A DNA stretch of 64,000 nucleotides from contig JAIWND010000014.1 of NCBI GenBank assembly GCA_025330725.1, positions 744,001-808,000 on the forward strand, written 5' to 3'. A model generated the notes under the pieces. That model was not told where the DNA came from and did no database searches. It worked only from the letters and a program-made list of their open reading frames with translations. The stretch is from Chlamydoabsidia padenii. Its lineage: Eukaryota; Mucoromycota; Mucoromycetes; Mucorales; Cunninghamellaceae. A program made the position numbers and the translations under genes. Numbering within the stretch: position 1 is the first letter of the stretch; each line of letters starts with the position of its first letter. This document shows positions 57,494 to 63,219 of this stretch, one piece after another.

Positions 57494-58460
57494 GTGATCA
57501 TGTTTGTTAATAAACCAAACATGGCAGGCTCAACACCTTGCTCGCCAGTAAACTCAATACATCCTGATCTTCTTCAACTGTCACAAACCATTCAACAGGT
57601 CTCTAGTCAGTTGAACCTGATACTATCACAACAACAACAACTTGCACCACAAAAATGCTCCGACGGACAAGCCAAAGAACACTTTACAGATCTATCAACA
57701 TCCACCTACTCTGATCAACCCCTACGACCCTGTCATCACACCTCATCAATGAACTTTATCAAAAGTGCCAGTGGTAATATCTTGATGGCACAATGTCACC
57801 ACCGACCAACAACTTTATCCTCCTCCACTTCTTCTTCACTCTTATCATCTACCTATCCATCAAGTTGTCCGCATGATCCTGCTCTATGGCATCAGAAATA
57901 CCACCACCAGCATTATCATCATTACCATCCTTGTTTATCTCCCGATCCGACCCGACCGTATCCTTGTGTCCATCATTCAATAACATGCCAGGAACAACAA
58001 CAACAACAACAACAACAACAGTATCAACAGCAACACTCACACCAACATTCTTCCATTGATAATAATATCGATCCGGGATCCATAAATACAACGCCGCCAA
58101 CAGACATCATGCCATCCGATCCAGATCCACCTTCTTCTGTTGCCTCTCCTGCACCAACCTTCAGATCTGATACGTCATGTGATGAAATCAACGGTAAGAC
58201 CTTTCATAAATCATGTCTCTCTTTATTAATACACACACACACACACAAACATTCTCTCTCTCTTTATCATGCTTATATTAGAACCAGTCGAACTCACATG
58301 GACTGATATATATCAACATCAAGAAGAAATCAACACCTTACCGAAATTGGCTACCATAACTGAGAAGAAGAAAAAGATCAATCAATCCTTCCTTCTTCGG
58401 GACTGGTGGTCTCATAAATGGCATCGGCTTAGAAACAAGTCTGTATCCCCCTCATATTAG
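57494..58460 (+). CDS. His/Gln-rich unknown protein
   Basis: Two exons (57494-58193, 58282-58460) give 292 residues from the first ATG; starts at 57500 and 57521 are equally possible. The first third is Ser/Gln-rich with a short helix DLLQLSQTIQQVSSQLNLIL that may form a coiled coil. The middle is His/Tyr/Cys-rich (KYHHQHYHHYHPCL) and could bind metal, followed by a Gln run encoded by CAA repeats (57993-58019). The second exon has a denser C-terminal segment ELTWTDIYQHQEEINTLPKL and LLRDWWSHKWHRLRNK, the only part that looks conserved. I do not recognise the family. A low-complexity regulatory protein is possible. Confidence 0.6.
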
Positions 58461-58952: not shown

Positions 58953-61900
58953 TTATTCTTGATCCATGTATTCTTCAGGAGAGGGACAAGTACACATCAA
59001 GTTACGATCACCATAAGCATCATCCACACGAGAGACAGAAGGCCAGAATTTACGTTCACGAAGACCAGGCACAGGGAAGGCAGCGGTTTCTCTGCTGTAA
59101 GGACGATCCCATTTATCCGACATCATGATTTCCAGAGAGTGAGGTGCGCTGTTGAGCATATTGTCCTTCTTGGGTAACTTGCCATCAATCACTTGTTGGA
59201 TTTCCTTGCGAATACCAATCATCGCATCACAGAAGCGATCCAGTTCATTCTTGGGTTCAGATTCGGTAGGTTCGATCATCAGGGTATTAGTAACAGGCCA
59301 GGACATGGTAGGGCTGTGGAATCCATAATCTTGAAGACGCTTGGCAACATCAATAGCTTCAATACCATATTCACCAAAGGGTCGGATATCGACAATGAAT
59401 TCGTGACCACACATGCCGTTTTCGTTGGTGAAGAGGATTTCATAGTGAGAAGCAAGGCGACTGGCCATGTAGTTAGCGTTAAGGATGGCCATCTCGGTAG
59501 CATGAGTCAAACCTTCACCACCCATCATCTTGATATAAGCCCAGGAAATGGGAAGAATAGAGGCAGATCCATAAGGAGCAGCTGAGATGGGTCCAATAGC
59601 ATTTTGACCACCGGTTTTAACGAGAGGATGTCCTGGAAGGAAGGGAGCAAGATGTTCCTTACAAGCAATCTATAAATATAACAAAATCAGTTCCTCCATT
59701 CCTTTTTTTTTTTTTTTCTTTTCTTGTTACTTACAGGACCCATACCAGGACCACCACCACCGTGAGGAATACAGAAGGTCTTGTGAAGATTCATATGACA
59801 AACATCAGCACCAATTTGACCGGGACTGGTCAAACCAATTTGAGCGTTGAGGTTAGCACCATCCAAGTCTATGAGCAAAAGCAAAAGCAAAAAAGTTGGT
59901 GGTGCCATTATTTTAAACGCCGCCACCGACTGAAACAGCATGATACTTACAAACTAAAAAGATTACATCAGGGAAGACATAGAAATAAAGATCAAGGATA
60001 GATTAGATTAGTATCAATAGTGCTCCCCCCCCTAGTATTATCCCTTACCTTGACCACCATATTTATGTACGACTTCACAAGCTTCGGCCACACCAGTTTC
60101 AAACATACCAAAAGTAGAAGGATAAGTGATCATGACAGCAGCCAATTTGTCCTTGTGTTTTTCAGCCTTGGCCTTGAGATCAGCCATATCGAGATTGCCT
60201 TCGGAATCACACTTGACGATGACGACATCCATACCAGCCATAGCAGCAGAAGCAGGGTTGGTACCGTGAGCAGAGATAGGGATCAAGCACACATTACGTT
60301 GACCTTCACCACGGGAGTCATGGTAAGCACGGATGGTACGGAGACCAGCATATTCACCTTGAGCACCAGAGTTGGGTTGAAGAGAGACAGCATCAAAACC
60401 AGTGATTTCTTCCAAATCCTTTTCCAATTCATCCAACATGATACGATAACCGGCAGTTTGGTCGACAGGAGCAAAAGGATGGATGTTACCGAATTCGGGC
60501 CAAGTGACAGGAATCATTTCAGTGGTAGCATTTAACTTCATGGTGCAGCTTCCGAGAGGGATCATAGAGTGGACGAGAGACAGATCCTTGTTTTGGAGGT
60601 GATGGATGTATCGAAGCATTTCAGTTTCAGAGTGATGAGTGTTGAAGATAGGGTGTTGAAGAATGGCGGAAGTACGCTTGAGTTGAGAGGGGAAGGCATC
60701 CAAACCCTTGTTGAGGACAGTAGCAGCATCATCAATGTTGACAGTGGTGTTTTCCTTGGCGAAGAGAGAGATCAAGTCGGTGACATCCTTCTTGCTGACG
60801 GTTTCATCTAAAGTGACAGACACAGTTTGAGGGTTGATGGTACGCAAGTTAATTCCTTGAGCAATAGCCTTTTCAGAGACAGCAGTAGCACTATCCACCT
60901 TGATAGACAAGGTATCAAAGTAAGCACCATCGTTAACAATAGAGTGACCTGATTGACGGACACCTTCAGCCAAGACTTGAGTCAAGTTGTGAATACGTTG
61001 AGCAATGGCTTTGATTCCCTATACGGTGGAAAGAGATAGAGAGTCAGTATTCCAAATATTAAAGACACGCACACACGCACACATAAAATCTACTTACTTC
61101 AGGACCATGGTAAACAGCATACATGGCAGACATGTTAGCCAAAAGAGCTTGAGCAGTACAGATGTTACTAGTGGCCTTTTCACGACGAATGTGTTGTTCA
61201 CGAGTTTGAAGGGCGAGACGGTAAGCAGGCTTTCCATGAGCATCACGGGAGACACCAACAATACGACCAGGGATACGACGTTTGTGTTCTTCCTTACAGG
61301 CAAAGAAGGCAGCATGAGGACCACCGAAACCAAGAGGTACACCGAAACGTTGACTGTTACCCAAAGCAATATCAGCACCGAATTCCCCAGGAGCCTTCAA
61401 GAGAGCCAAAGCCATCAAATCAGTAGCAACAGCAACTTGACCACCAGCACCATGGATAGTAGCGGTCAAATTTTCATAATCTTGGACAGTACCATTTGTG
61501 TTGGGATACTATTATAAAAAAGATTAGTTCACTGGTTACATCCCATCCCATTATACTAGTCTGTGTTTACCTGAATCAAAGCACCACAGAGTTGTTTCTT
61601 GTTTTCTTCAAAGTTATAGTTAAAGATATCAGTGACAACGACGTTAATGTTGAAGGCTTCAGCACGGGTCTTGAGACATGCAATAGTTTGAGGATGACAG
61701 TTGACATCGACGACAAAGGTGTTCTTCTTGCGATTACTACCTTGCCAGGTCATCAACATAGCTTCAGCAGCAGCAGTGCCTTCATCCAAGAGAGAGGCAT
61801 TGGCAATAGGTAAACCAGTCAAGTCACTAACCATAGTTTGATAGTTCAACAAGGATTCCAAACGACCTTGAGCAATTTCAGGTTGATAAGGAGTATACTA

Positions 61901-62507
61901 ATGGACGCGCACCAAACAAAATAAAAAACAAAAGAAATCATTAATACACCATTATCATCATCACCCGCCCCTCTCCTTTTTTTTTTTTTTTTTTTTTTTT
62001 TTTTGTAATATTATTATAACTTACTTGAGTATACCAAGCAGGATTTTCCATAATGTTTCGTAATATAACATTGGGCACCACAGTATCAGTATAACCAGTA
62101 CCAATATAAGAGCGGAAGATCTTGTTCTTGGAGGCAATAGACTTCAAACGTTCCAACAATTCCTTTTCCGACATACCTTTGGAGACAGACAATGCTTTGG
62201 TGGATCGAATAGAGTTGGGGATACTTTTATACAACAAGTCGTCGATATTCTTGACACCAATTTGTTTCAACATGGCATCCACTTCTTCACCAGCAGAACC
62301 AACATGACGACGAGTAAAGGTATCCAAAGGAGCAAACGCATTAGTAGCCTTGGAATGAGCCATACGAATGGTTGTGTTCGTTAACTTGGTTCTTGACAAG
62401 ACGCTTGGACGAGCACCAGAGAGGACCAAACGTGGGGATTGAGTGGCCGACATGACCGACACACGAGTCAAAGAATGCTTAGAACGTTGACCGAGACGAG
62501 ACAACAT
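58953..62507 (-). CDS. GCV2: Glycine dehydrogenase (decarboxylating), P-protein
   Basis: Seven exons (62507-62025, 61897-61571, 61508-61098, 61018-60049, 59953-59951, 59868-59735, 59669-58953) give 1014 residues. The PLP enzyme of the mitochondrial glycine cleavage system decarboxylates glycine and loads the aminomethyl group onto H-protein. The N-terminus is a basic Ser-rich presequence. Landmarks are [76 protein letters not shown], and the PLP site [19 protein letters not shown] with the Schiff-base Lys at about 761. Exon 5 is a 3-nt microexon (TTT). It is needed to read [14 protein letters not shown]; skipping it gives GGQDLDGAN, still in frame but lacking the conserved Val-Tyr. Three TTCCACCGAGT-like repeats lie upstream. 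Confidence 0.97.
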
Positions 62508-63219
62508 TGTGTATTATAGATATAGTATTAAAAAAAAAAAAAAAAAAGGAACCAAACCTTTCAAGAATAAATAGTAGATAAAGGAGAAAAAAAGGAAAGA
62601 AACGAAAAAGAAAAAGAAAAAAAAAAGATGGACGCCATTTATTCGATATCTACTTCCACCGAGTCAGAAAAAAAAAGCATGTTTGAACCCCGATATGCGG
62701 GATGTGATCCCCTTCCACTGAGTCAACTTACCACTACCAAATACTGCATTTTTTTTTTTAACTGGTTCCCTAATTCCACCGAGTAAACTTGATTTTTTTT
62801 TTTTTTTTTTATTACCCTTTCGTAAGACAAACTAGTATAGGCCAAAAAGTATCACCACACATACAATTTCAACTAGATGAACCGAATCATCATAACATTA
62901 AGACTTGATTATGCAAATTTGATTATCCCTTTTTTTTCTTTCTTTCCCCACACGAATTGATCACCCTTTTCACAAATATTCAAATCCCGATTGATCTTCT
63001 TTTAAAAACTTCCTGGAATAGTCCCGTTGCTCTTATATTTGTACTTTTATTTCATTAGTCTTAAACATAAAACAATACATGATTATTCTATACCATAATA
63101 CAACAATACTACTACATACAAAAATAAGATGACAGATATATATATATAAAAGTTTCTATTGACATTATATAAAAAGGGGGGAGGGGTTGTCTAACTATAG
63201 GTTATGTATGTCCTAACAA
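62508..63219. promoter_or_regulatory. Upstream region of P-protein gene
   Basis: Contains three TTCCACCGAGT-like repeats (62654-62784), a variant element GCGGGATGTG at 62694, T-runs, and AAATCCCG at 62982-62989. The 3' end of the next minus-strand gene follows. Which gene the last element serves is not clear. Confidence 0.5.
62654..62784. repeat. Three spaced TTCCACYGAGT repeats
   Basis: TTCCACCGAGT at 62654-62664, TTCCACTGAGT at 62713-62723 and TTCCACCGAGT at 62774-62784, spaced by 59 and 61 bp, 147-278 bp upstream of the P-protein start. They may be binding sites for a glycine- or one-carbon-responsive factor; this is inference. Confidence 0.65.

Follow-up and report, generated by a model that had tools for sequence, protein, structure and literature searches.

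Exons of three letters are very rare and are easily missed by gene-finding software. In the accessible parts of the published reports, the closest precedent for the exon described here is the 1-nt exon of Fusarium CYP621A (PMC12940212, 2026), likewise a tiny fungal exon that lies in a conserved enzyme motif, between an AG and a GT that nearly touch, and that was found since its neighbouring exons fail to join. As far as the same sources go, the 1-nt exons of the plant genes APC11 and VPS55 (PMC4674806, PMC8831610) are also ultra-small exons on which a conserved protein depends and which annotation overlooked, and sequential intron removal has been proposed for them. A 3-bp, frame-preserving micro-exon has been described in Drosophila homothorax (PMC7392893), again on the accessible text. 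The candidate reported here shares features with each of these, and lies in a central enzyme gene of Chlamydoabsidia padenii (Mucorales).

The window, by which we mean the whole 64,000-nucleotide stretch that was analysed, matches once in the 34.2-Mb, 95-contig genome. Spliced translation of its minus strand gives a full-length gene for the glycine cleavage system P-protein (glycine decarboxylase) at 62507-58953. Human glycine dehydrogenase is the best of the 8 PDB sequences that match the protein at E <= 0.001 (E 2.8e-215), its C-terminal part matches TIGR00461 (E 1.4e-242), and both the sequence family and the PLP lysine block, with NLHKTFC present, mark it as a P-protein. The nearest proteins among the matches listed come from Absidia cylindrospora (92.1% over 1018 columns) and Cunninghamella echinulata (87.0%). 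The gene is laid out as follows.

62025..62507, minus strand: exon 1, with the ATG at 62507 (spliced translation)
61571..61897, minus strand: exon 2 (spliced translation)
61098..61508, minus strand: exon 3 (spliced translation)
60049..61018, minus strand: exon 4, 3' end ...GGT GGT CAA G (spliced translation and direct reading)
59954..60048, minus strand: intron 4a, 95 nt, GTAAGG...CTTTTTAG, phase 1, with the branch-site-like words TACTAAT, CTAAT and CTGAT
59951..59953, minus strand: candidate 3-nt microexon TTT (sole two-intron model of 1191 that restores Q-V-Y-L-D-G-A-N; conservation)
59869..59950, minus strand: intron 4b, 82 nt, GTAAGT...CTCATAG, phase 1, without a canonical branch-site word
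59735..59868, minus strand: exon 3' of the microexon, AC TTG GAT GGT..., carrying the NLHKTFC lysine
58953..59669, minus strand: last coding exon, running to the stop codon (spliced translation)

Two further features of this region can be recorded. Intron 1 (61898-62024, minus strand) contains 28 consecutive A, and its acceptor, at the 2.7th percentile, is the weakest in the gene. Downstream of the gene, at about 57990-58020 of the window, the minus strand has a (GTT)n run, which on the plus strand is a CAA-type repeat and may code for a stretch of glutamines in the product of the neighbouring gene.

We take the TTT at 59953-59951 to be a true 3-nt exon of this gene that would be included in normal transcripts, with a probability of about 0.93, a reading grounded in the observed DNA, the reading frame, conservation and the uniqueness of the TTT solution. 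Direct reading places the 3' end of exon 4 (...GGTGGTCAAG) at 60049, with its donor GTAAGG from 60048, and has the exon ACTTGGATGG start at 59868 after CTCATAG and end at 59735. Between them stands CTTTTTAG-TTT-GTAAGTATC, just as the first-pass annotation had it, with TTT between the acceptor and a perfect GTAAGT donor. The annotation also held that exon 4 must join the exon at 59868, and a junction by way of TTT proved to be the only solution among 146 + 1191 models. None of the 146 single introns with GT/GC-AG boundaries near both exons restores the conserved block, nor does any single intron with unrestricted boundaries, and exactly one two-intron model does so.

With TTT, the junction reads CAA GTT TAC TTG GAT (Gln-Val-Tyr-Leu-Asp) and encodes the block GGQVYLDGAN in a protein of 1014 aa; without it, CAA GAC TTG GAT (Gln-Asp-Leu-Asp) gives GGQDLDGAN and 1013 aa. 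The predicted spliced junctions are GGTCAAGTTTACTTGG with TTT included and GGTCAAGACTTGG with TTT skipped. The frame is open to the protein end in both forms, in keeping with the earlier claim that skipping leaves it intact, and because the exon keeps the frame, an annotation that skips TTT looks fine though the active-site block is damaged. Inclusion would yield Gln-Val-Tyr-Leu-Asp-Gly-Ala-Asn, a conserved stretch leading into the PLP site, and the estimate that this block lies about 29 residues before the PLP lysine was accurate: Tyr732 to Lys761 is 29 residues, and the human counterpart runs from Y725, of the pair V724-Y725, to the PLP lysine K754. When only the C-terminal part is scored, the skipped form scores 13.8 bits lower on TIGR00461 and 12.3 bits lower on NF003346, in the latter case falling under the cut-off of 441; the TIGR00461 cut-off is reached by neither form, since only that part was scored. 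The Asp of DGAN presumably makes contact with the ring nitrogen of PLP, in line with other fold-type-I enzymes, and the exchange of Val-Tyr for a single Asp by skipping would probably inactivate the enzyme. A human variant in the same block, G728E, is recorded, in the accessible part of the source, as an allele in two compound heterozygotes (PMC7259800).

The residues that TTT would restore are conserved. The first-pass annotation had given the P-protein block as QVY[ML]DGAN, and the pattern [VCL]-Y-[LM]-DGAN occurs in 190/190 relatives among the matches listed by two protein searches, the pair before [LM]DGAN being Val-Tyr in 188, Cys-Tyr in one and Leu-Tyr in one. These relatives, compared as proteins, are the best 120 of 8000 scored and the best 120 of 415 matches (70 of these new). 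For one of them (P0160), the first match fell on an unrelated DGAN earlier in the protein; the second match is the true site and likewise has Val-Tyr. No listed match was recognised as the annotated protein of the window species itself, which may belong to the cluster of P0001. A scan of genomes for P-protein loci, with patterns that do not touch the site, returned bacterial and actinobacterial loci and no fungal locus among the 80 of 588 matches listed; all 80 of these bacterial loci have Val-Tyr. The residues that the candidate microexon would supply are conserved in every listed relative and bacterial locus, and the splice solution is unique among the models tried.

Splice-site matrices were trained on 74 introns from 264 kb of the same genome, found by open frames and codon bias. 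TTT is a very short exon flanked by an acceptor and a donor (AG-TTT-GTAAGT) that both fall within the range of these introns. The acceptor scores 7.2 (32nd percentile of the 74) and the donor 7.4 (22nd percentile), the latter with GTAAGTAT on its intron side and a weak TTT on its exon side, while the outer donor stands at the 85th percentile and the outer acceptor at the 30th. Both inner sites thus rank as ordinary or below average, without leaving the range that the training introns span. A weak point is intron 4b, which has no CTNAY branch word at the usual distance and only CCAAC, in a genome whose enriched branch-site words are ACTAAC and CTAAY; 28% of the scored introns likewise have no CTNAY in their last 60 nt. 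The two intron lengths, 95 and 82 nt, compare with a median of 76 in an intron search up to 140 nt. When the search was extended to 400 nt, 22/81 introns were at least 180 nt long, many of them probably pairs spanning more than one intron, and for this reason we make no claim that an intron of 180 nt would stand out here.

As for the route of splicing, two short introns, both in phase 1 and one codon apart, would flank TTT. Exon definition is implausible, since an acceptor and a donor three bases apart can hardly both be occupied. The introns would most likely be recognised by intron definition and removed sequentially, and either order of removal would leave complete splice sites. With low confidence, we expect intron 4a to leave first because its branch words and its outer donor are the better ones. 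Sequential removal has been argued likewise for a 1-nt Arabidopsis exon (PMC4674806), and in the potato invertase gene the second of the introns flanking a 9-nt exon leaves first (cited in PMC4674806), in both cases as far as the accessible text goes.

The simplest rival is that TTT is skipped, in which case one 180-nt intron would be removed, the enzyme would carry Gln-Asp-Leu, and AG-TTT-GT would be there by chance. In its favour, the frame does stay open without TTT, and neither inner site is more than ordinary or modest in strength. Simulation speaks against it. Only TNT triplets yield Val-Tyr at this junction, and in 20,000 simulated introns of 180 nt, drawn from a second-order model of the training introns, AG-TNT-GT with at least 45 nt on each side arose in 1.87%, any AG-NNN-GT whose two sites score no worse than the observed ones in 5/20,000, and AG-TNT-GT with equally good sites in 0/20,000. 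The first-pass annotation had proposed checking P-proteins from relatives for Gln-Asp-Leu; this short form occurs in 0/190 listed relatives and 0/80 listed bacterial loci, and we regard constitutive loss of TTT as very improbable indeed. A different possibility is that TTT is alternatively spliced, with regulated skipping tuning the amount of active enzyme, much as a microexon switches the transcription factor Xlr2 in Trichoderma. The three bases keep the frame, so both forms could be translated, and one fungal microexon under regulation has been published (PMC11121469, accessible text). Nothing in the sequence points to regulation, though, and a search with the skipped protein as query found the short form in none of the best 120 of 415 matches, which leaves this reading very unlikely. 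The more specific idea that the exon acts as a frame-silent switch, setting the balance between active (Val-Tyr) and inactive (Asp) P-protein and so tuning glycine cleavage post-transcriptionally in an early-diverging fungus, is a long shot that we would hold at similarly slim odds.

That the 180 nt are a stwintron, or contain a recursive splice point of zero length that leaves no exonic bases, we consider to have a practically negligible chance. Stwintrons are known in fungi, and the two introns here nearly touch and would probably be removed in sequence. Yet each has its own complete donor and acceptor, three bases are left between them, and no inner intron interrupts a splice element of an outer one, as a stwintron would require; a zero-length exon, for its part, would yield the skipped protein. 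A genuine 3-nt exon remains the reading that we prefer.

The 16-mer TTTTTAGTTTGTAAGT occurs once in the window and in 0/100 shuffles, and YYTTTTAGTNTGTAAGT occurs once in the 34.2 Mb, against 0 for the reversed control. A scan of 264 kb on both strands for exons of at most 30 nt, judged solely by splice scores and coding flanks, came up with two candidates, the TTT exon and one of 22 nt, but the scan is not fully blind: its thresholds were chosen when the P-protein scores were already known, and introns of this gene may be among the 74 used for training. The 22-nt candidate (L003 5070-5091, minus strand) was rejected as an artefact, as the sequence reads through as part of one continuous exon of a gene that we take to resemble a CCT chaperonin subunit. 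The pattern TTTTTAG-N(1-12)-GTAAGT occurs at 26 places in the 34.2 Mb, 3 of them with a gap of three, and is rarer than its reversed control (58), so that the genome offers no broader class of such exons as support.

As for the origin of the two introns, copies of either intron region elsewhere, as an introner-type origin would predict, were sought in the genome at E <= 10, and only self-matches were returned. Of 18 metagenome proteins hand-picked from the matches listed, 16 start at query residue 278-448, inside the gene, and run unbroken to residue 991-1012. This could mean that the relatives behind them have no intron here, though it is suggestive at most. A second intron gained beside an older one is a possible origin, as is the adoption of a cryptic exon that rescued a damaged junction, by analogy with what the accessible text suggests for Fusarium (PMC12940212).

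Upstream of the gene, the 13-base candidate promoter element TKACTCRGTGGAA has three copies within 133 bp, a number that 0/100 window shuffles reach. Its places are these.

62654-62666, minus strand: TKACTCRGTGGAA, exact match
62713-62725, minus strand: TKACTCRGTGGAA, exact match
62774-62786, minus strand: TKACTCRGTGGAA, exact match
Position 1501 in each of L104, L105, L109 and L111, outside the window: TKACTCRGTGGAA, upstream of genes

The genome has 12 exact places, against 6 for the reversed control. Gene context can be given for five of the nine outside the P-protein gene (the remaining four being one on C25, one on C41 and two on C89). One copy precedes the first domain match of the T-protein (GCV_T) gene by about 260 bp. 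A second is followed closely by a Beta_elim_lyase-family gene, presumably threonine aldolase, a third lies upstream of a serine dehydratase beta-chain-family gene, and a fourth stands upstream of a Myb-domain gene, about 0.1 kb from its apparent start; the fifth falls inside the open frame of an apparent membrane protein (L110), which counts against the idea. At 2/3 SHMT places a one-mismatch copy precedes the first domain match by about 0.55 kb, the third having no copy with up to two mismatches in the locus examined; another one-mismatch copy lies about 0.27 kb before 1/3 GCV_H places, the other two having two-mismatch copies only. Judging by these neighbours, TKACTCRGTGGAA looks like an element of a glycine/one-carbon regulon. 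In yeast, the Myb factor Bas1 binds TGACTC at glycine cleavage genes, and by analogy a Bas1-like Myb factor may perhaps read TKACTCRGTGGAA.

If confirmed, the TTT exon would be among the smallest reported from fungi, and it is notable for its central enzyme, its kept frame and its host; it also offers a clean test case for the use of splice sites three bases apart. The first-pass annotation had remarked that few such exons are known in fungi, and the accessible parts of the papers agree. No 3-nt exon from Mucorales was found in the microexon literature searched, which covered few subscription papers. The following comparisons extend as far as the accessible text of each source. The P450 microexons of Phanerochaete chrysosporium (PMC1184071) also lie in fungal enzyme genes, but the shortest, at 6 bp, is twice as long and comes from Basidiomycota, and the fungal microexon of Trichoderma virens Xlr2 (PMC11121469) differs in being a glucose-regulated switch in a transcription factor. 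The homothorax micro-exon (PMC7392893) belongs to an animal gene and is alternatively spliced, with isoforms of separate functions. The APC11 and VPS55 exons (PMC4674806, PMC8831610) are from plants, verified in transcripts and, unlike TTT, not frame-preserving. The CYP621A exon (PMC12940212), from Ascomycota, is seen in 20 orthologues and has sequence-read support, and skipping its single nucleotide breaks the frame, whereas the three bases of the candidate Chlamydoabsidia exon keep it.
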